A stretch of DNA of 64,000 nt from Aliarcobacter thereius LMG 24486 (lineage in GTDB: Bacteria; Campylobacterota; Campylobacteria; Campylobacterales; Arcobacteraceae). The stretch lies in NCBI RefSeq assembly GCF_004214815.1, contig NZ_CP035926.1, forward strand, positions 682,001 through 746,000, in the 5' to 3' direction. The notes beneath the pieces were generated by a model, which was not told where the DNA came from, ran no database searches, and saw only the letters and a list, made by a program, of their open reading frames with translations. Below are positions 28,850 to 37,419 of this stretch, piece after piece. Position numbers and translations under genes: made by a program. Within the stretch, counting starts at the first letter, position 1. Each line of letters opens with the position of its first letter.

Positions 28850-29098
28850 TTATTTTGAAACTAATTTATCTGTTTTTTTATTGTTTTTTGTTTGATAAAG
28901 CATATGGTGCCAAAGAGCAAAGCCACAAAAAGCGACACCAGCAATTACGTGAGTATTTTTAGCAAGTTTATTTTTCATAAACATTGAAGTAACAACAGTA
29001 GCACCTAGAGTTGCAGTCATTCCAATTTTTGCAACTTCTCTTTGAATTTCTAAATCAAATGTTTTGTTTTCTTTCATCTCTTTTTTTTCTTCTTTCAT
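28850..29098 (-). CDS. Small membrane protein at the end of the P1B ATPase cluster
   Basis: The 82-residue protein has a charged N-terminus (Lys/Glu-rich), a hydrophobic stretch at about 23-40 and another at about 50-62 that ends in FALWHHMLY, then a Lys-rich tail. The histidines at the membrane edge could bind metal or haem, but nothing proves it. Its ATG lies inside the preceding 40-codon gene (44-base overlap, different frame). It is the last gene of the metal cluster that begins at 34919. Confidence 0.65.
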   Translation of the reverse strand: MKEEKKEMKENKTFDLEIQREVAKIGMTATLGATVVTSMFMKNKLAKNTHVIAGVAFCGFALWHHMLYQTKNNKKTDKLVSK

Positions 29099-29177
29099 AA
29101 GTTTTTAAACTTTTATTTACTGTTTTAACTGTTAAAACACCTGTAATTAGTGTTGCAAGAGGTAATAAAAATGGCAT
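29055..29177 (-). CDS. 40-residue membrane peptide
   Basis: A short frame starts at ATG 29177-29175 with AAAGGA 6 bases upstream. It encodes one hydrophobic helix (about 2-17, PFLLPLATLITGVLTV) and a strongly basic tail (KTYERRKKRDERK). It overlaps the next gene by 44 bases in another frame. The strong ribosome site and membrane-plus-basic-tail layout support it as a real small protein of the ATPase cluster. Its function is unknown. Confidence 0.6.
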   Translation of the reverse strand: MPFLLPLATLITGVLTVKTVNKSLKTYERRKKRDERKQNI

Positions 29178-29191
29178 ATGAAATCCTTTTG

Positions 29192-29247
29192 ATAATAGTT
29201 ATTGAATTTTAATATTTAATTGCTTAAATAAAACTGATAACTATTAT
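29192..29247. repeat. Inverted repeat between the ATPase gene and the last two small genes
   Basis: ATAATAGTTAT (29192-29202) and ATAACTATTAT (29237-29247) are exact 11-bp inverted arms with a 34-base loop, in the 76-bp gap downstream of the P1B ATPase stop. It may act as a partial terminator or an mRNA stabiliser that lowers expression of the last two genes. The stem is AT-only apart from one G-C pair. Confidence 0.4.
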
Positions 29248-29253
29248 TAAAAT

Positions 29254-31371
29254 CTATTTTCTTGCTAAATTCACACCCTTGATTGAATTAAAAAGTAAAG
29301 CAATAGTTGTTCCATTGTGTAAAATTGCTGTTGTAATTGGTGAAAATAGTCCAAATGTTGCACCTGCAAGTATTCCACTATTTATTCCAACTGTTGCATT
29401 GAAATTAGTATTTATTAAACTCATAGTTTTGTTTGCATACTCTTTTGCTTCAACTACAGCCATGATATCATCTTTTAATAAACTAATATCAGCAGTTGCT
29501 TTTGCTATATCAGCACCTTTACTCATTGATATTCCAACATGAGAAGATATTAAAGCTGGAGCATCATTTATTCCATCTCCAATAAAAGCAACTTTTCTAC
29601 CTTCATTCATAAGCTCTTTTACAATATCAGCTTTTTCTTGAGGAAGTAATTCTGCTCTTACTTCATCTATTCCTAGCTCTTCTGCTACTTTTAAAGCTTT
29701 CTCTTTAATATCTCCTGTGAGCATTACAATATTTTTTACTCCAAGAGATTTTAATTTTTTAATAGCATCTTTTGTATTTAATCTTAATTCATCACTTAAA
29801 CCAATTGTTCCAAGAAGTTTTCCATCATAAGCTACATAAAGTAGAGTATCACATTTTTTTAAAGACTCTTCAATCTCTTTTTTATAAGGCTTAAAATCTA
29901 TTTTTTCATCATCTTCTAAGAAGTGTCTACTACCAATAATAACAGCTTTCCCTTTTATTTCTGTTTTTACTCCATGTGCTACAATAAATTCTACTTCTTC
30001 ATGGTGCATATGCACAAAACCACGCTCTTTTGCAGCTTTTACAACAGCTTCTGCAACAGGATGGAAATAGTGTTCTTCAGTTGAAGCAGTTAGATTTAAT
30101 AGTTTCTCTTCAGTCCAGTTTTTATCATATGAATCAACACTTATAACTTCTAGTTCTCCACTTGTTAATGTACCTGTTTTATCAAAAACAAAAGTATCTG
30201 CACTTGCCAATGATTCAATAGATTTTGCACCTTTTATCATAATTCCACTATGACCAGCTTTTGAAATAGTTGATTTAAAAGCAACAGGAGTTGCAAGTTT
30301 TAATGCACAAGAATAATCAGCTTGTAAAACTGAAGCAACTCTTTCAAAATCTTTTGTAAAGATATAAGCTGCACTTGCTAAACCTAGAGTTACAGGAACT
30401 AGTTTATCAGCTAGTTTATTTGCTTTTAATTGAGCAGATGATTTTTCATTTAAAGAGTTTTCTATATAGTGTTTTATTCTTTGTGTTGCTGTGTTTGCAC
30501 CAACATGTTCAGCCCAAATTCTAAATCTTCCTTCTTCAACTATTGTTCCAGAAAGAACTTTATCTCCTCTATATTTTGCAATTGGTGTTGCTTCTCCCGT
30601 CATTGAAACTTGATTTATAGTTCCAGCTCCATCAATAATATGTCCATCTATAGCAACAGTGTTTCCAGCTCCAACAATTACAATATCACCAATTTTTATA
30701 TCTTCAGTTTTCACAAGAACTTCGCTTACTTTTCCATCAACTCTTTTTTCAATCCATGCTTCTTCGATATTTGGTTTTGCAAGTTCTTTTAGTAAATCAT
30801 CACTTTTATGAACGGTTGTTTCTTCAATATATTCACCTAGTTCAAGCATTGCATTTGTAGAGTTTGCAGCAAGATAATCTTTTCTAAATATAGAAATTGC
30901 AACTGCTCCAGCTTCTAAAACATGAGATGTTAAACCTTCTTTAAATAGCTCTTTTGTTCCATCAATTAATAAAGGAGTACAAGCAAGTGTAGTTAAACCA
31001 GCTTTTAAAGTATTATTTGTAGTAACTCTTTCTAATGCAAGAGCAGAACTAGCTATTAAAGTACCTTTTATAGATGGTTTTTCCTCACCAATACAAGAAA
31101 CACAAACACTATTTGAATTGCTTGTAACAGATTTTAAAAGATTATCTAAACTTATATTTTCTAATTTTTCTTCAATTTTATTAAAAATATCATTACTTAC
31201 ATCAAAAATTATAGAGTAGGCTTTTTTATTTATTCTTATATCATTTATCTCTTTAATATCTTTAAAATAACTCTTTAAGATATCTTCATCAATAAATTTT
31301 TCTTTTAAAATTTGAAGCTTATATCTTGCTCTATTTTTTATCTGGTGAACTTTTATAAACTTTGAATTCAT
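29254..31371 (-). CDS. P1B-type metal-transporting ATPase with YSC in place of CPC
   Basis: The 705-residue P-type ATPase has every catalytic landmark: TGE 258-260, phosphorylated D397 in DKTGT, the P1B-specific HP 437-438, and GDGINDAP 598-605. The transmembrane metal site, normally CPC, reads YSC (353-355, before ALKLATP). The last helix has HNGTTIALLFNS. The first 80 residues form an HMA-like domain without CxxC, but C90-V-S-C93 follows. Metal identity is therefore unusual, and iron is a candidate because of the ferritin-like neighbour. It lies 12 bp after the YtxH-like gene in a ten-gene operon. Confidence 0.9.
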   Translation of the reverse strand: MNSKFIKVHQIKNRARYKLQILKEKFIDEDILKSYFKDIKEINDIRINKKAYSIIFDVSNDIFNKIEEKLENISLDNLLKSVTSNSNSVCVSCIGEEKPSIKGTLIASSALALERVTTNNTLKAGLTTLACTPLLIDGTKELFKEGLTSHVLEAGAVAISIFRKDYLAANSTNAMLELGEYIEETTVHKSDDLLKELAKPNIEEAWIEKRVDGKVSEVLVKTEDIKIGDIVIVGAGNTVAIDGHIIDGAGTINQVSMTGEATPIAKYRGDKVLSGTIVEEGRFRIWAEHVGANTATQRIKHYIENSLNEKSSAQLKANKLADKLVPVTLGLASAAYIFTKDFERVASVLQADYSCALKLATPVAFKSTISKAGHSGIMIKGAKSIESLASADTFVFDKTGTLTSGELEVISVDSYDKNWTEEKLLNLTASTEEHYFHPVAEAVVKAAKERGFVHMHHEEVEFIVAHGVKTEIKGKAVIIGSRHFLEDDEKIDFKPYKKEIEESLKKCDTLLYVAYDGKLLGTIGLSDELRLNTKDAIKKLKSLGVKNIVMLTGDIKEKALKVAEELGIDEVRAELLPQEKADIVKELMNEGRKVAFIGDGINDAPALISSHVGISMSKGADIAKATADISLLKDDIMAVVEAKEYANKTMSLINTNFNATVGINSGILAGATFGLFSPITTAILHNGTTIALLFNSIKGVNLARK

Positions 31372-31383
31372 TTTAGATACTTT

Positions 31384-31710
31384 TTAATCTTTTGTATGAT
31401 GTGAAGAAGCAGCTTTTGCATCTTCAATTCTCTCTTTTAACTCTTCTACACCAGCACTTACAAAACCTTTTGCTTTTTCAAATGTTTTAAAGATAGTTTC
31501 TTGAGCATTTTTATTTGTTAAAACATAAGTTGCTATTGCACCTATTAATGCACCTTTTATAAAATCTCCATTTAATAAAGAGTTTGATTGATTTTGCGTA
31601 TTGTTGTTTTGGTTTAAACCTTGATTTATATAAGGGTTTTGATTTAAATTACTACTATTGTTAGTAGCATTTCTTGTTGAGTTAATATCATTGTTGTATT
31701 GATTATTCAT
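31384..31710 (-). CDS. YtxH-like small membrane protein with Asn/Gln-rich N-terminus
   Basis: In this 108-residue protein the first 45 residues are almost only Asn, Gln, Ser and Thr and look disordered. One membrane helix follows (about 50-64, FIKGALIGAIATYVL), then a charged amphipathic helix (about 68-102) ending in SSHHTKD. This is the layout of YtxH-type proteins. It overlaps the preceding gene by 8 bases. A low-complexity tail on a membrane anchor next to a ferritin-like protein suggests a scaffold role, but that is inference. Confidence 0.7.
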   Translation of the reverse strand: MNNQYNNDINSTRNATNNSSNLNQNPYINQGLNQNNNTQNQSNSLLNGDFIKGALIGAIATYVLTNKNAQETIFKTFEKAKGFVSAGVEELKERIEDAKAASSHHTKD

Positions 31711-32053
31711 TATCTTCTCCTAATTTTATATTTTGGTTTGTTAAATACTTTTCTTCTAATTTTTCTTCTATTACTTCAAGTGCATAAATACCTGCTAAAC
31801 CAATACTTAAAGCTGTAAAAGCTCTAAGATAATTTCCTTCTCCAATATAGTTTGTAGTTGCAATAGCACTTCCTGTTACTATAGCTCCTTGAGAAGCTCT
31901 TTTTACTGTATCTTTTATTGCACAATTCTTATTTAAAGATCCATTTTGAGTCTTTTTATAGTTAATAGCACCACTAATTACAGCACTAGCAATAGCACCA
32001 CTAATTACATGTCCTAAAACATTTCTTGGTGCTCCTGTATCTATTTTTTTCAT
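31703..32053 (-). CDS. Gly/Ala-rich membrane protein of the P1B ATPase cluster
   Basis: The 116-residue protein has three hydrophobic, glycine- and alanine-rich segments (about 14-31, 54-68 and 78-93), with small-residue spacing that favours packed helices (VISGAIASAVISGAINY). The C-terminus is acidic. I recognise no family. It overlaps the 83-residue gene by 4 bases and the YtxH-like gene by 8, so the three small membrane proteins are made together. Confidence 0.7.
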   Translation of the reverse strand: MKKIDTGAPRNVLGHVISGAIASAVISGAINYKKTQNGSLNKNCAIKDTVKRASQGAIVTGSAIATTNYIGEGNYLRAFTALSIGLAGIYALEVIEEKLEEKYLTNQNIKLGEDNE

Positions 32054-32301
32054 TTTACTACCTCTTTATTTGAAACTATTTTTTTAGTATATTTTCTTTT
32101 TGGTTTTTCTTTAATTTCTTGTAAGTCAGTTTTTATCTCTTCTTTTTTTAATTTACTATCAACTATTCTTTTAGTAGATACAACTTTTTCTTTTGCAATA
32201 TCTATAATTTCTTTTGATTTACTTTTTAATAAATCTCTATTTTTATAAGCCATAACAGTAGTAGCTCCTACAAAAATCCCTGCTATAAAAGGTAATGCCA
32301 T
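32050..32301 (-). CDS. Single-helix membrane protein with basic tail
   Basis: The 83-residue protein has one N-terminal helix (about 2-18, LPFIAGIFVGATTVMAY) and a long Lys-rich tail (KPKRKYTKKI near the end). It resembles small YtxH/DUF5132-like anchors but cannot be placed firmly. ACTCC-complement ribosome signals (AAGGAG) precede the ATG. It sits between the ferritin-like gene and the Gly/Ala-rich gene. Confidence 0.65.
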   Translation of the reverse strand: MALPFIAGIFVGATTVMAYKNRDLLKSKSKEIIDIAKEKVVSTKRIVDSKLKKEEIKTDLQEIKEKPKRKYTKKIVSNKEVVK

Positions 32302-32304
32302 AAT

Positions 32305-32991
32305 TTACTCCTTATCATCTTGGTTTTGTTTATTATATGAACTTAATAGCTGATTTATTATAGCTATTAAAGCTCCTCCACTAAGAGCACCACCTATAAA
32401 ATTAAAATTTAATTTTGAAAGTAGATTTGATATAGAATTTTCATCTAAATTCCCTGAAGAAAATTGTGAATAAATCTCTTGATATTGGGCTAAATCTTGC
32501 ATTAGCTTTTCTTGATTAAATCCATTAATAGATGAATTATTATAGTAGTTTTGTACATGAGAACGAAAAGCTGGTAAATGATTGTTGTATGATGCAGCTT
32601 GGAGTTGGTAAAGAGTATCAATTATATCACTATCTTGTGCATAAGAAAGAAGATAATTATATAAAGCAATATTGTTTATTTCTCCTGCAACACCTAATTC
32701 ATAACATTCAATTAAAGACTCAGGAATTGAAATCTTATTTTCTAAATCATTAATAGGAACTTCAATATTATATTTTTGCATAAGTTGTATAAGTACTGAA
32801 TAATGTATAGCTTCTGCCTCTTTTATATTTAAAAAAGGGTTTATATTTCCAAATTTTTCTATTACTTTTGTATATATTTCATAAGCTTTAAACTCATCAT
32901 ATACAGCAATTTGTAAAATTTGATCACGAATAGGAATATTTGAATTTTCATCTATTTTTTTACTAGTTAAAATATTGTAATCAACTGCCAT
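32305..32991 (-). CDS. Ferritin-like (DUF2202-type) protein with C-terminal membrane helix
   Basis: In this 228-residue protein residues 20-150 form a ferritin-like four-helix pattern with candidate di-iron ligands: E33 and E38 (YDEFKAYEIY), E58/E60/H63 (KEAEAIHY), E98 and E104 (ELGVAGEIN), then a late histidine near 137-144. A glycine-rich hydrophobic segment near the C-terminus (IGGALSGGALIAIINQLL) would tether it to a membrane. Ordinary DUF2202 proteins lack such an anchor as far as I recall. Its ATG shares a base with the stop of the HMA-like gene. Confidence 0.75.
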   Translation of the reverse strand: MAVDYNILTSKKIDENSNIPIRDQILQIAVYDEFKAYEIYTKVIEKFGNINPFLNIKEAEAIHYSVLIQLMQKYNIEVPINDLENKISIPESLIECYELGVAGEINNIALYNYLLSYAQDSDIIDTLYQLQAASYNNHLPAFRSHVQNYYNNSSINGFNQEKLMQDLAQYQEIYSQFSSGNLDENSISNLLSKLNFNFIGGALSGGALIAIINQLLSSYNKQNQDDKE

Positions 32992-33302
32992 TAAATCTCC
33001 TTTATAAGATTGTTAATAATATCTCTAATTTCTGAAATATTTTCTTTTTTTATTAAATCTTCCCATAATGATGGACTAAAAATATCTGGATCGTAAATAA
33101 TTGTAACAGAAGCTATGATTTTATTTATCTTTATATCTTTAATTCCAGATATTTTTGTGGGTAAAGATTCAATATCTCCTAAGGAGATATTTTCACTCTC
33201 TTTTACTATTTTAGGGTTTACTCTAACTCTTAATCTTCCAGGAGTATGAGCAATAATTGAAAAGTAACTTGCTATTTTTATTATTGTATCATTATCAATC
33301 AA
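32991..33302 (-). CDS. HMA-like (HMA_2-type) protein without CxxC
   Basis: The 103-residue protein has an N-terminal HTPGRLRVRV segment and a beta-alpha-beta layout with SGIKDIKINKIIASVTIIYDPD, typical of HMA_2 domains found next to P1B ATPases. The metal-binding CxxC of classical HMA domains is absent, so it probably acts as a partner or regulatory domain and not as a copper chaperone. It starts just 2 bases after the nhaA stop and overlaps the ferritin-like gene by 1 base. Confidence 0.7.
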   Translation of the reverse strand: MIDNDTIIKIASYFSIIAHTPGRLRVRVNPKIVKESENISLGDIESLPTKISGIKDIKINKIIASVTIIYDPDIFSPSLWEDLIKKENISEIRDIINNLIKEI

Positions 33303-33304
33303 TA

Positions 33305-34552
33305 TTATTCCTCTTTTATATCACTGTTTTTTCTGCTTAAAAAAAGTAGTAAACAAACTCCAATAACAGCTGCTGTTATTGAACTTGCGAATACTGCAAT
33401 TTTTACAGCACTTACTACATGTGGATCACTAAATGCTAAATGAGATATAAATATTGACATAGTAAATCCAATTCCTGCTAAGAAACCAACAGCTACAATC
33501 TCTCTCCAAGATACATTTGATGGCTTTTCACTAATTTTAAATAAAGTTGCAAGATATGTAAATAATAAAATACCAATAGGTTTTCCTATAACTAAACCAA
33601 AAAATACTCCTAAAACAATTGTGCTATTTTCAATAACACTTTCAAACTCTAATGCAACACCAGCATTTGCAAAAGCAAATAAAGGCATTATTAAAAATGC
33701 ACTAAAGTTATGTAAAGCATGTTCTAGCTTTAAAAGTGGACTTTTTGAGTTGTGCTCTTCTATCTCTTCTACAGATGTTTTATTCGCCTTTAAAGGAATT
33801 ACAAAAGCAAGTAATATACCAGCAATTGTAGAGTGAATCCCTGAACTATGCACAAAAATCCATAAAAATATACCAACAAATAAATAAGGCATAACTCTTG
33901 TTAAATTAAAGTAGTTAAATAACATTAAAACAAAATATGTAAGAGCTGAGTATATTAGGAAATCATAGTGAAGTTCATTTGTATAGAATATTGCAACAAC
34001 TAAAATTGCTCCTAAATCATCTACAACAGCTAATGTAACTAAAAATACTTTAATAGATAAACTAACTCTTTTTCCTAAAAGCATTAAAATTCCAAGTGCA
34101 AAAGCAATATCTGTTGCCATTGGTACACCAAATCCAGTTGGGTGAGATTGATCTATAAATAGATAAACAAGAGCAGGAACAATCATTCCACCAAGAGCAG
34201 CAATTATGGGAAAAGATGCTTTTTTTAAGCTTGATAACTCTCCTATTAGCATATCTCTTTTTATTTCTAAACCAACAACAAGGAAGAAAATAGCCATTAA
34301 AACATCATTTATCCAGTGTTGTAAAGACATAGAAAAAGTATGAGTACCAAATGAAAAACTAAAATGAGTTTCAAGTATTTCAAAATATTGAGGAGCAAAA
34401 GTTGAGTTTGCTATATAAACTGCTAAAACAGTTACTAAAAAAAGTTTAAAACCACTTAGAGTTGCAGTTGATATAAAACTTGTTATAAATTTATATTGAT
34501 TTTTTATATTTACTATTGTTCTTAGATATTTTCTTGGGAGTAGATTAGCCAT
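33305..34552 (-). CDS. nhaA: Na+/H+ antiporter NhaA
   Basis: The 415-residue protein has about twelve membrane helices and the NhaA hallmarks: HWINDVLMAIFFLVVGLEIKR, PMATDIAFALGIL and the ion-binding Asp pair in VTLAVVDDLGAI. It exchanges sodium for protons and supports pH and salt balance. It overlaps the Fur-family gene by 8 bases and is 2 bases from the HMA-like gene, an unusual place for nhaA that links ion homeostasis to the metal cluster. Confidence 0.95.
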   Translation of the reverse strand: MANLLPRKYLRTIVNIKNQYKFITSFISTATLSGFKLFLVTVLAVYIANSTFAPQYFEILETHFSFSFGTHTFSMSLQHWINDVLMAIFFLVVGLEIKRDMLIGELSSLKKASFPIIAALGGMIVPALVYLFIDQSHPTGFGVPMATDIAFALGILMLLGKRVSLSIKVFLVTLAVVDDLGAILVVAIFYTNELHYDFLIYSALTYFVLMLFNYFNLTRVMPYLFVGIFLWIFVHSSGIHSTIAGILLAFVIPLKANKTSVEEIEEHNSKSPLLKLEHALHNFSAFLIMPLFAFANAGVALEFESVIENSTIVLGVFFGLVIGKPIGILLFTYLATLFKISEKPSNVSWREIVAVGFLAGIGFTMSIFISHLAFSDPHVVSAVKIAVFASSITAAVIGVCLLLFLSRKNSDIKEE

Positions 34553-34919
34553 TTTTGTTACAGTCCTTACATTGTCCTTTTAGGATAATATTTTCAATTT
34601 TATAATTTTTTAGAGAAAAATTTGGTTTTTCAAATATACACTCTATATTTGAACAAATATCACAAATAAAATGAAGATGTTCTTTATCTTTTATTTCAAA
34701 ATATCTTTTTTTATCGTTTGATTCAAAAGAGTTAATAAGTTTATGCTCTTCAAAAAATGTAATATTTCTATAAAAAGTAGCTTTATCCATTACTATGTCA
34801 TTTTTAATATCTTCATAAGACAGAGGTCTTTTCGAATCTAATAAAAGGTCTAAGATACTTTTCCTAGCATTTGTAAGCTTTATATTTGAAAAGAATTTTT
34901 TATTTTCTAAATTATTCAT
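34545..34919 (-). CDS. Fur-family metalloregulator
   Basis: The protein has 124 residues from ATG 34919. The DNA-binding winged helix (about 10-75) reads LTNARKSILDLL and DKATFYRNITFFEEHKLI, and the dimer domain has two CxxC pairs for structural zinc (CDIC, CKDC) and HLHFICDIC. Fur, Zur and PerR cannot be told apart here, but divergence from a zinc-binding protein gene favours Zur. An in-frame GTG at 34955 would add 12 residues. I prefer the ATG because the family usually starts about there, although neither has a good ribosome site. It heads the ten-gene metal operon. Confidence 0.85.
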   Translation of the reverse strand: MNNLENKKFFSNIKLTNARKSILDLLLDSKRPLSYEDIKNDIVMDKATFYRNITFFEEHKLINSFESNDKKRYFEIKDKEHLHFICDICSNIECIFEKPNFSLKNYKIENIILKGQCKDCNKNG

Positions 34920-34993
34920 AGGGAAAATATTACCAAAAACTTTATTAAGTGCCACTAAGTTGTATTAAAGTTTAAAAAGTTTAATATTCCAAT

Positions 34994-34999
34994 TATACT
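34994..34999 (+). promoter_or_regulatory. -10 box of the znuA-like promoter
   Basis: TATACT lies 39 bp upstream of the znuA-like ATG and immediately before the palindrome at 35000-35016. A repressor on that palindrome would block RNA polymerase. Confidence 0.5.
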
Positions 35000-35016
35000 T
35001 TGCAACTCAGTTGCAT
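35000..35016. promoter_or_regulatory. Palindromic operator, probable Fur-family (Zur) site
   Basis: TTGCAACTCAGTTGCAT contains the exact inverted repeat GCAACT-C-AGTTGC. It overlaps the expected transcription start of the znuA-like gene, directly after the -10 box, and lies in the divergent region of a Fur-family gene. The size and symmetry suit a dimer of that family, so I infer zinc-dependent repression of the transport genes and possibly of the regulator itself. Confidence 0.6.
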
Positions 35017-35038
35017 AACTCTAAGTTAAGGATAAAAA

Positions 35039-35926
35039 ATGAGAAAGATATTGCTTATAAGTATATTTTTTGTAGTAACATTATTTGCACAAAAAGATAT
35101 AATTTCTGTGACAATCCTACCGCAAAAATATTTTGTTGAGAAAATAGTAAAAGATAAGTTTAATATAAATGTAATGGTTTCTCCTGGAAGTTCTCCTCAT
35201 AATTTTGAACCAAAACCATCGACTATGAAAGCTCTTTTTTCTTCAAAAATATATTTTATGATTAATGAACCAAGTGAGAAAGCTTGGATAGAAAAATTTA
35301 AAACAAATGCAAAAAATACACTTTTTGTTGATACAACAAAAGAGATAGAAAAAATTGCTATGATGGAACACTCTCATAATGAAGATGAAGATGAAGATGA
35401 AGATGATCATCATCACTCACATCATGAACATGGAGAAGATGGATTAGATCCACATGTTTGGCTTGACCCAATATCAGTAAAATCTCAAGTAAAAACTATT
35501 TTTGAAACAATGGTAAAAATAGATGAAAAAAATAGTAAGTTTTATAAAGAAAATTATGAAGAGTTTATAAAAGAGTTAGATTTATTAGATAATGAGATAA
35601 AAGAGATTCTAAAACCATATAAAGATATGGCATTTATGGTATTTCATCCATCTTGGGGATATTTTTCTAAAAGATATGAAATAGAGCAGATATCTATTGA
35701 AATTGAAGGAAAAGAGCCAAAACCAAATGATATGATAAAGTTAATAGAAGAAGCAAAATTACATAAGATAAAAATAGTATTTGTTTCTCCACAATTCTCA
35801 CAAAAAAATGCAAAAACAATATCAAAAAGTATTGGTGCAAATGTTATTTCTATTGATCCTTTAAGTGATGATTGGCACAATAATATGCTACTTGTTGCAA
35901 AAGAGATAGCAAAAAGTTATAAATGA
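35039..35926 (+). CDS. znuA: Zinc-binding periplasmic protein, ZnuA-like
   Basis: The 295-residue cluster A-I substrate-binding protein has a signal peptide (1-17, ILLISIFFVVTLFA), a first lobe with SPGSSPHNFEPKPS (metal-ligand histidine), an acidic and histidine-rich loop (about 112-136, alternating Glu/Asp then His) and DPHVWLDP, then FHPSWGYF and a late aspartate in SIDPLSDDW. The His-rich loop is typical of zinc carriers. No znuB or znuC follows. The next gene is a NicO-type permease, overlapping by 4 bases. Confidence 0.9.
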   Translation: MRKILLISIFFVVTLFAQKDIISVTILPQKYFVEKIVKDKFNINVMVSPGSSPHNFEPKPSTMKALFSSKIYFMINEPSEKAWIEKFKTNAKNTLFVDTTKEIEKIAMMEHSHNEDEDEDEDDHHHSHHEHGEDGLDPHVWLDPISVKSQVKTIFETMVKIDEKNSKFYKENYEEFIKELDLLDNEIKEILKPYKDMAFMVFHPSWGYFSKRYEIEQISIEIEGKEPKPNDMIKLIEEAKLHKIKIVFVSPQFSQKNAKTISKSIGANVISIDPLSDDWHNNMLLVAKEIAKSYK

Positions 35927-37419
35927 TTAGATTAATACTTTTTTTAGTTTTAAGCCAAAGTTTTATCTTTGGCTGCTCTTTATGTGCAGTTCTAACACCA
36001 AAAACATATGTAACAACAAAAATTGAAGCAGATGATAAAAATATAAAATCTGTTGATATAAAATGGGAATTTGTAAAAGAGTTTTCAGAAGAACTTATGA
36101 AAATTTATGATTTAAATTTAGATAATAATTTTGATGAAAAAGAGTTAGCTCTTATAGAAGACTCTTTAATCTCTTATTTAGTTTCAAAAGATTTCTTAAC
36201 AACAATATCTTATAGCAATGATTCAAAAAATAGTATTCCTTTTCGTGTAGAAAGTTATAAAATGAGCTTTACAAACAATACTTTATTTTTTGATTATAGA
36301 GTTATTTTAGATTTAGAAATATATGATAAAAACAGTCTAAATCTTAGAATATTTGATGATGAGAACTACTTTTTCTTTATATTTGAAGATAAAAATCAAG
36401 AGATAAATATACCTTATGAAGTAAGTAAAACAACAAAAATAAATGAAGTAAACTACAAAATATCTGCTTCAAATTTATCAAGCCAAAAGTTTAATATTGT
36501 TGTAAATAGCAAAAAAGAAGAAAAACAGAGTTTAGAAGATATTTGGATAGAGAATAATCAAAAAGTAGAAGATAAAGAGAGATTTGATAATAAAGTAAAA
36601 AGAGTAGAAAAACAAGAGATAAGTTTTACAGAAAAATTTACAAATAGTATGAAAAAATATCTTGTAGATATTGAAAATGGAGATAAATTTGCTCTATTTT
36701 TTCTTATTTTAGCATCTTTTTTATATGGATTATTTCATGCTTTAGGACCAGGTCATGGAAAAGCTTTGGCATTTTCATATTTTTCAACACAAAAAAGTAC
36801 ATATCTTGAAGCATTTACAATATCTTTTTTAACAGCTTTTATACATATTATAGGAGCATTGATAATAGTTGTTTTTTCAATACTTATTTTAAATACACTT
36901 ATGAGTAATTTCTTAGAAAATTCAATTACCTATATTACAGCTTTTAGTGCACTTATAATTATGCTTTTAGCAATTTTTATTTTATATAGAAAAATTACCA
37001 AAAAATCTTGTGTTTGTGGAACTTGTGGAAGTAATGAAGAGTTAAAGTGTTCACAATTTAGTATAAAACCACAAAATATGAATTTTGTAAAAGCTACAAT
37101 AAATAAGCCAATAAGATTTCAAAAAAGAAGTAAAAAACAAGATTTGGTATTTGTTTTAACAGCTGGAATTATACCTTGTCCTGGAACAGTTTTACTTTTT
37201 GTTTATGCTTTTTATTTAAAGACTTATTTTGCTGTGATTTTGGCAAGTATTAGTGTAAGTTTTGGTATGGCTTTGGTGATATTCTTATCATCATTTTTAG
37301 GAGTAAGTTTACATAAACTATCTTCAAATTCAAAAAAACTTGTAAATAGTTTAGAAATCCTTGCTCCAATTTTTATGTTTATGTTAGCTTTATTAATGCT
37401 TTTGGGTGTTTTGATTTAG
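35923..37419 (+). CDS. DUF1007-NicO fusion transporter
   Basis: In this 498-residue protein an N-terminal signal or anchor segment ends at GCSLCAV. Residues about 25-200 form a periplasmic beta-rich DUF1007-like domain, and the C-terminal half is a six- to seven-helix NicO/RcnA-type permease with the motif FHALGPGHGKALAFSYF (about 274-290) and a Cys-rich loop (CVCGTCGS). NicO proteins move nickel or cobalt. Next to a zinc-binding protein and a Fur-family gene, zinc is plausible here. Its ATG overlaps the znuA-like stop (ATGA), so the two are translationally coupled. Confidence 0.85.
   Translation: MIRLILFLVLSQSFIFGCSLCAVLTPKTYVTTKIEADDKNIKSVDIKWEFVKEFSEELMKIYDLNLDNNFDEKELALIEDSLISYLVSKDFLTTISYSNDSKNSIPFRVESYKMSFTNNTLFFDYRVILDLEIYDKNSLNLRIFDDENYFFFIFEDKNQEINIPYEVSKTTKINEVNYKISASNLSSQKFNIVVNSKKEEKQSLEDIWIENNQKVEDKERFDNKVKRVEKQEISFTEKFTNSMKKYLVDIENGDKFALFFLILASFLYGLFHALGPGHGKALAFSYFSTQKSTYLEAFTISFLTAFIHIIGALIIVVFSILILNTLMSNFLENSITYITAFSALIIMLLAIFILYRKITKKSCVCGTCGSNEELKCSQFSIKPQNMNFVKATINKPIRFQKRSKKQDLVFVLTAGIIPCPGTVLLFVYAFYLKTYFAVILASISVSFGMALVIFLSSFLGVSLHKLSSNSKKLVNSLEILAPIFMFMLALLMLLGVLI

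Follow-up and report, generated by a model that had tools for sequence, protein, structure and literature searches.

The ferrosome genes of Desulfovibrio magneticus are fezABC, and FezB is a P1B-6 ATPase. To our knowledge, organelles of the ferrosome type have so far been known from only a few species. Ferrosomes are described as membrane-bounded iron stores (PMC11334425, PMC12574912) and FezA and FezB of C. difficile as Fur-repressed (PMC12574912). FezC was shown to be a haem b cytochrome resembling DUF4405 proteins, with sites that homodimerisation could create (PMC11334425); the ferrosomes of R. palustris are attributed to six fez genes (PMC12016538). A search of the ferrosome literature, made at the level of titles, yielded none on a ferrosome of Campylobacterota among those listed. 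In the present work, an operon was analysed in a stretch of 64,000 nucleotides (the window) from the closed 1.92-Mb genome of Aliarcobacter thereius LMG 24486. The conserved unit of this operon is a module of eight genes at positions 28850-33302 on the minus strand. Its best reading is a Fur-controlled ferrosome-type store with two additions, a ferritin-like and a remotely MamC-like protein, and it is considered probable that the eight genes build and load such an iron store.

Ten consecutive open reading frames (ORFs) lie on the minus strand at this locus, separated, in the order of transcription, by gaps of -8, 2, -1, 3, -4, -8, 12, 76 and -44 bp. The strand and number of these ORFs, as well as their tight spacing and the 76-bp gap before the two tiny last genes, had been reported correctly in a preliminary description of the stretch. 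Clear Pfam or NCBIfam names were obtained for just four of the ten proteins (FUR, NhaA, DUF2202 and heavy-metal P-type ATPase), and the small proteins of the window gave weak matches only. For comparison, 22 loci were taken from named records and 39 regions were picked, non-randomly, from 135 ATPase-positive Campylobacterota genomes. The order of seven families was followed, the gene for a protein of 40 amino acids (aa) being excluded. The short loci L033-L062 were excluded from the order and Fur-box counts and included in the counts over 82 and 92 loci given below; species recur within these counts, in which L033 is the window itself. The families found kept an identical order around the ATPase gene in 22/22 and 39/39 loci, and chance was therefore ruled out as the origin of the cluster. 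Conservation of the whole order in other Campylobacterota, which the preliminary description had proposed to look for, was thus seen in 61/61 loci for the families found, and the small genes proved to be conserved with the ATPase in related genomes.

The complete set of seven families was present in 19/22 and 28/39 loci, and three of the 22 (L017, L023 and L024) were truncated at contig ends. In the 39 regions, the profiles found the ferritin-like family in 32, the MamC-like family in 32 and the family of the 82-aa protein in 31. The family of the 83-aa protein was present in 19/22 and 36/39 loci, and the YtxH-like family in 60 of the 61. The profiles detected no more than an HMA2 gene, a YtxH-like gene and a shorter ATPase gene in L082, L083 and L089, which are three loci of one family. 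Twelve 40-aa orthologues could be aligned with the copy of the window; in L011 and L014, this gene stood behind, not before, the 82-aa gene. Since NhaA adjoined the module in just 2/22 loci, the unit was taken to comprise eight genes, and the ten-gene unit assumed at first was rejected. The nhaA gene and the Fur-family gene stood together beside the module in 2/22 loci (some loci being ended by contig ends), and lower-scoring Fur-family genes like that of the window were found elsewhere in many relatives. These two genes were therefore not regarded as parts of the system, and the charge-balancing role that had been proposed for NhaA was unsupported.

The ATPase was found in 135/397 Campylobacterota genomes, representing 28/68 genera (E <= 1e-150), and by ATPase identity (85-86%) the genome of the window is close to Arcobacter cryaerophilus and A. 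vandammei. One Arcobacter plasmid (L032, CP129951.1) carried all eight genes and another (CP134847.1) carried the pump; therefore, the module may move between strains.

The ATPase gene (29254-31371, minus strand) encodes a P1B pump of 705 aa (TIGR01525, 484 bits), assigned to the FezB/P1B6 type from its motifs and its place in a tree. As noted in the preliminary description, YSC occupies the CPC position in transmembrane helix 4 (TM4); in addition, HNGTT is present in TM6, the last helix. YSC was conserved in 90/92 cluster ATPases and HNG[TS]T in 90/92, while further P1B ATPases, encoded close to the clusters and in the same genome, carried CPC. An HN motif in TM6 has been named as a P1B6 feature (PMC9374683). 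The arginine-rich, HMA2-like N-terminus retained an R-x-R motif in 85/88 sequences and scored 22.1 bits against Pfam HMA_2 (gathering score 30). In a tree of 44 sequences, which included no Mn exporter, the 25 YSC/YAC ATPases, with those of Azospirillum, Vibrio and Cereibacter plasmids, formed one clade (support 100/99), separate from the CopA types, from a Zn-type ATPase that the same genome encodes and from the DUF1490-linked ATPases. Neither of the marks of Cu, Zn and Cd exporters, CPC in TM4 and placement in their clades, was found in this pump. Grouping with ordinary exporters had been named beforehand as the outcome that would speak against a ferrosome; as far as tested, the pump was separate from Cu, Zn and PacL-type pumps. 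The structural model (pLDDT, predicted local distance difference test, 73) gave Z 34.4 to a Cu ATPase, with the next row tied, and confirmed the P-type fold only. One of the exceptions among the 92, the ATPase of Gloeothece (L031), lacked both the YSC and HNG motifs and branched just outside the clade (99/93); its placement is unsure because its branch is very long. L027, a CopA-type ATPase matched by chance, was retained solely as an outgroup. A second, CPC-type P1B ATPase was encoded upstream on the same strand in L064, L067, L069, L085, L086, L090, L093, L096, L099, L101 and L102, and those sampled in the tree (L064, L067, L086 and L096) formed a clade of their own.

The last gene of the module (28850-29098, minus strand) encodes the 82-aa protein and overlaps the 40-aa gene by 44 bp in a different frame (both at 28850-29177). 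For this and other families, chosen members were aligned (38 MamC-like sequences, one of them from Vibrio, 34 of the 82-aa family, 28 YtxH-like and 35 ferritin-like). H-x13-H was present in 82/82 loci, and H50 and H64 were invariant in the 34 aligned sequences. The DUF4405 family matched 28/34 of them at E <= 0.1 (best 1.7e-4) and 0/10 reversed controls. To judge by these features, the protein is a probable two-helix b-type cytochrome of FezC/DUF4405 type. In Azospirillum, an HMA2 domain was fused to a similar two-helix domain (hhalign Prob 87.6, pairwise E 3.5e-6), and this fusion opened a row of six genes, namely, HMA2-FezC-like, HMA2, 83-aa-like, MamC-like, YtxH-like and ATPase. The equal number of genes in this row and in the R. 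palustris fez cluster is only suggestive. A FezC-like protein with a C-terminal SpoIIAA-like domain was encoded at L085:7508-8134 and L086:10484-11119, with Pfam E values for that domain of 2.5e-19 and 4.8e-19 in the two Campylobacterota proteins scanned. Further candidates for this fusion were noted in L060 by eye and, from their length alone, in L059 and L075.

The first gene of the module (32991-33302, minus strand, TTG start) encodes an HMA2-like protein of 103 aa with an H-x2-PGRLRVR motif. It scored 28.6 bits against Pfam HMA_2, just under the cut-off of 30, and the Azospirillum homologues scored 30.3 and 27.3 bits. GRxR was found in 59/59 homologues and CxxC in 0/59, in agreement with the absence of CxxC reported earlier for the window's protein.

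A Fur box (TGATAATNATTATCA, <= 2 mismatches) preceded the two tiny genes in 21/51 loci, and in 11 of them it was perfect; 51 of the 53 gaps were used for this count, L066 and L092 being dropped because of length limits. When the half-sites were permuted (n = 60), the mean number for the same gap was 0.5 and the maximum 6, which corresponds to an enrichment of about 40-fold. Upstream of HMA2, the box was found at the same threshold in 21/59 stretches (permuted mean 0.8, maximum 5; about 27-fold). The 76-bp gap of the window contains two Fur-box-like palindromes, one with 3 mismatches at 29190-29204, weak when taken alone, and one with 2 mismatches at 29235-29249; it is in this same gap that relatives have perfect boxes. 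Matches of the quality of the window's boxes numbered 36 across the window against about 26 by chance, and for this reason these two count only through the relatives. The two perfect boxes present elsewhere in this genome precede a TonB receptor gene and an imelysin-like gene (both named by eye).

FeoB and Fur-family genes stood near the module far more often than expected by chance. Counts were made in 40 genomes chosen non-randomly from the 135; 31 of the 40 have FeoB, and the expected numbers were calculated for uniform placement and with genome sizes rounded. In 11/40 genomes, FeoB was at most 13 kb away from the module (0.5 expected), and a Fur-family gene lay within 6.5 kb in 21/40 (0.8 expected); in 3 of these 21 (G000, G008 and G106), the sole nearby Fur-family gene was, by score and place, of the type found in the window. 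The Cereibacter cluster was situated among FeoA and TonB-receptor genes. This fez-like cluster (L030), with YAC for YSC, is on plasmid pORIO2 of Cereibacter azotoformans, typed as conjugative, and FecR and sigma-factor genes also occur there. The P1B6 motifs, the ATPase tree, the FezC/DUF4405-like protein, the Fur boxes and the iron-gene neighbours support the central idea of the preliminary description, namely, a ferrosome-type system built on a non-CPC P1B ATPase. Its inclusion of NhaA and the Fur-family gene, and of iron oxidation as a general step, is not supported.

The second gene (32305-32991, minus strand) encodes the ferritin-like protein of 228 aa, which matched Pfam DUF2202 with 24.1 bits, above the cut-off of 22. 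Its AlphaFold 2 model was a ferritin four-helix bundle (mean pLDDT 79.9) that could be superimposed on bacterioferritin with Z 16.8 and a root mean square deviation of 2.1 over 135 residues. The family profile found MJ0754 (E 1e-4) and, weakly, encapsulated ferritin (E 0.002). Thus, the ferritin-like protein with a C-terminal membrane helix of the preliminary description was recovered, the Gly-rich helix (residues 202-227) being modelled with low confidence. The putative di-iron ligands, assigned by analogy and not from a metal-bearing structure, are E33, E60, H63, E104 and H138 (set E, E-x2-H, E, H). E104 was kept in 35/35 sequences, one of which, the ORF of L072, was missed by the profile and added from its position. 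The set with acids and histidines kept was complete in 17/35 homologues, that of the window included, and because it was complete in only these, a universal ferroxidase role is unlikely; iron oxidation by this protein, as first proposed, could therefore not be upheld as a general step. No signal peptide was seen by eye in the ferritin domain, and the membrane helix follows the domain; for these reasons, it is more likely that the bundle faces the cytosol than the lumen.

The remaining small proteins are predicted to reside in the membrane. The 83-aa protein (32050-32301, minus strand), recognised from its conservation, has an N-terminal GxxxG helix and a charged tail, and G8 and G12 were invariant across 16 sequences of its family. 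The 108-aa YtxH-like protein (31384-31710, minus strand) has a GALIGA helix and an EELKER-EDAKA tail; its Asn/Gln-rich part is the N-terminus and not, as had been described, the tail. YtxH matched 13/28 aligned members of this family at E <= 0.05 but not the window's own copy, and the GALIGA-type helix and tail were kept across phyla. The tiny protein of 40 aa (29055-29177, minus strand) was recognised from its twelve aligned orthologues. The 116-aa protein (31703-32053, minus strand) matched NCBIfam MamC (NF038051) with E 5.9e-5, and this profile matched 25/38 members of its family at E <= 0.01 and 0/10 reversed sequences. The best match, covering most of the profile, was that of the Vibrio protein (E 8.8e-9, 35.6 bits). 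By hhalign, the Azospirillum and Cereibacter counterparts were connected to the family; a search of solved structures with the MamC-like family gave nothing useful (best E 0.34). In L072 and L074, a single ORF apparently comprised a MamC-like stretch (by eye), which the MamC profile did not match, and a YtxH-like part. The small-protein profile check proposed earlier thus revealed a weak likeness to MamC, below the cut-off, and a match of the 40-aa protein to MamI (11.6 bits, E 0.19) that was rejected as not meaningful.

Several observations weigh against a Fur-controlled ferrosome-type store. A box within 2 mismatches was missing in 30/51 gaps and in 38/59 HMA2 upstream stretches, and all 11 perfect boxes were confined to Arcobacter-group loci among the 22 from named records. 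Both boxes of the window contain mismatches, and the HMA2 gene there, 2 bp behind nhaA, has no promoter gap of its own. Clusters outside Campylobacterota were without a clear Fur box, the best having 3 mismatches in Vibrio, 6 in Cereibacter and 6 in Azospirillum. The window's 82-aa protein is below the curated DUF4405 cut-off (16.9 vs 26.7 bits), and the ligand set was incomplete in 18/35 ferritin-like homologues. The MamC scores were 23.3 bits for the window and 35.6 bits for Vibrio against an equivalog cut-off of 100, and the profile missed 13/38 aligned members as well as the Azospirillum, Cereibacter and fused proteins. Because the scores were far under the cut-off and the Azospirillum and Cereibacter counterparts were missed, the family is called MamC-like, not MamC. 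Finally, the link to fez was drawn from features and not from a tree with proven FezB, and the sequences bear no feature indicative of a vesicle or of the transported metal.

Among the alternatives, an efflux platform of the PacL kind survives best, although it is considered unlikely. In such a platform, the small proteins would cluster the P1B6 pump in the plasma membrane, where excess iron or another divalent metal would be exported with no organelle involved. PacL1-CtpC platforms are described to pair a small transmembrane protein with a P1B6-like ATPase bearing the HN motif, and DUF6110 (PacL-like) proteins to accompany P1B6 ATPases (PMC9374683). The layout of the YtxH-like protein, one helix and a Glu/Ala-rich tail, is comparable by eye. 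However, neither DUF1490 nor DUF6110 was matched among the ten proteins of the window (E <= 1) or the 28 YtxH-like members (E <= 0.05), and the ATPase is without CPC and outside the DUF1490-linked ATPases. A two-His cytochrome and a ferritin are not needed by an export pump, and the Fur boxes suggest synthesis under iron scarcity, unlike that expected of an exporter of excess iron.

It appears improbable that the metal stored or enclosed by these same parts is a different one (Zn, Mn or Co), with the iron link being only regulatory. This possibility is suggested by the setting of the window's copy. Outside the conserved module, the copy is preceded by a lineage-specific neighbour, the NhaA Na+/H+ antiporter gene (33305-34552, minus strand; Pfam Na_H_antiport_1, 465 bits), and by a Fur-family regulator gene (34545-34955, minus strand). 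The latter is one of the three Fur-family genes of the genome, the strongest Fur match being beside FeoB, and to judge from its surroundings it probably encodes Zur. A perfect palindrome, TGCAACTCAGTTGCA, is located at 35001-35015, in the interval from 34955 to 35039 between this gene and a divergent znuA-like gene. The genome contains this motif four times in perfect form and the backward control not once; two of the four copies are adjacent to each other at a TonB-receptor-like gene, and the copies likely mark a Zur regulon. Additionally, in several relatives, a second P1B ATPase, of the CPC type, is encoded a short way upstream. Nevertheless, conservation with the module does not extend to nhaA, the window-type Fur-family gene is adjacent in few genomes, and the Fur boxes and the linkage to FeoB and Fur indicate iron. 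Directly behind the znuA-like gene, a NicO/RcnA-like membrane protein is encoded at 35923-37419 (both named by eye).

It is very improbable that the module is a remnant or relative of magnetosome machinery for size-controlled iron minerals, since, despite the MamC matches in 25/38 members and the nearly full-length match of the Vibrio protein, the scores are far below the equivalog cut-off, the Azospirillum, Cereibacter and fused proteins are missed, MamI alone among the other mam families was named for the window's proteins, and the ATPase and cytochrome-like protein fit fez clusters.

For a ferrosome-type store, the gene set, gene order, motifs, Fur boxes and iron neighbourhood observed are consistent with the following mechanism. 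Under iron scarcity, Fur would leave the promoters of HMA2 and of the tiny genes, where the boxes are located, and the proteins would be made. The Gly-zipper membrane proteins (83-aa, MamC-like, YtxH-like and 40-aa) may then pack together, giving shape or a coat to a patch of membrane or a vesicle that gathers the pump. The ATPase, with its P1B6-type motifs, would pump Fe(II) into this compartment, assisted by the HMA2-type domains, in which an Arg-rich motif takes the place of the Cys pair that binds metal. The FezC-like 82-aa protein would probably dimerise, its H-x13-H helix holding b haems, and could pass electrons across the membrane, which would allow iron to be stored in the Fe(III) state and set free as Fe(II). 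The C-terminal helix of the ferritin-like protein would serve as its anchor, leaving the bundle exposed to the cytosol. This protein may oxidise iron or pass it on in those homologues that have an intact ligand set, and in the others it is more likely structural.

A broader reading is possible but doubtful, namely, that many Campylobacterota, Helicobacter relatives included, build ferrosomes with a surface-tethered ferritin-like protein and a shaping protein that shares ancestry with MamC. Were this ancestry shared, ferrosomes and magnetosomes would have drawn on a common stock of iron-organelle proteins. As genomics, the case for a ferrosome-type module in a new guise is strong. The locus provides a Fur-linked candidate module, and roughly one in three of the genomes sampled from the phylum, some members of which are associated with animals and food, encodes its pump; the eight genes are amenable to deletion. 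Such a module would join ferritin chemistry and membrane iron organelles in one operon, and it gives a hint of a protein family common to ferrosome-type clusters and magnetosomes.

Comparison with known systems places the module as follows. Its likeness to magnetosome MamC lies in a small, Gly-rich membrane protein to which most of the MamC profile can be matched; it differs from magnetosomes in that the MamC scores are weak and no magnetosome gene set was seen. The DUF2202 proteins (MJ0754, PDB 3q4n-3q4r) have the same fold as the ferritin-like protein (3q4r, Z 16.4, 25% identity) and its ligands in part, whereas the module's protein adds a C-terminal membrane helix and the putative ligands are lost in many of its homologues. 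As in the mycobacterial PacL/CtpC platforms, small membrane proteins are encoded with a P1B ATPase bearing the HN motif in TM6; in contrast to these platforms, the module is without a DUF1490/DUF6110 match or CPC, its ATPase belongs to a separate clade, and cytochrome-like and ferritin-like proteins are present in addition. The fez systems of D. magneticus, R. palustris and C. difficile have in common with the module the non-CPC P1B6-type ATPase, small membrane proteins, Fur control (predicted for the module from the boxes) and, probably, a FezC/DUF4405-like protein. Relative to them, in a comparison made without proven fez sequences, so that some fez clusters may share these extras, the module adds a ferritin-like protein of the DUF2202 family, tethered to the membrane, as well as a MamC-like one, and its FezC-like protein is just 82 aa long.

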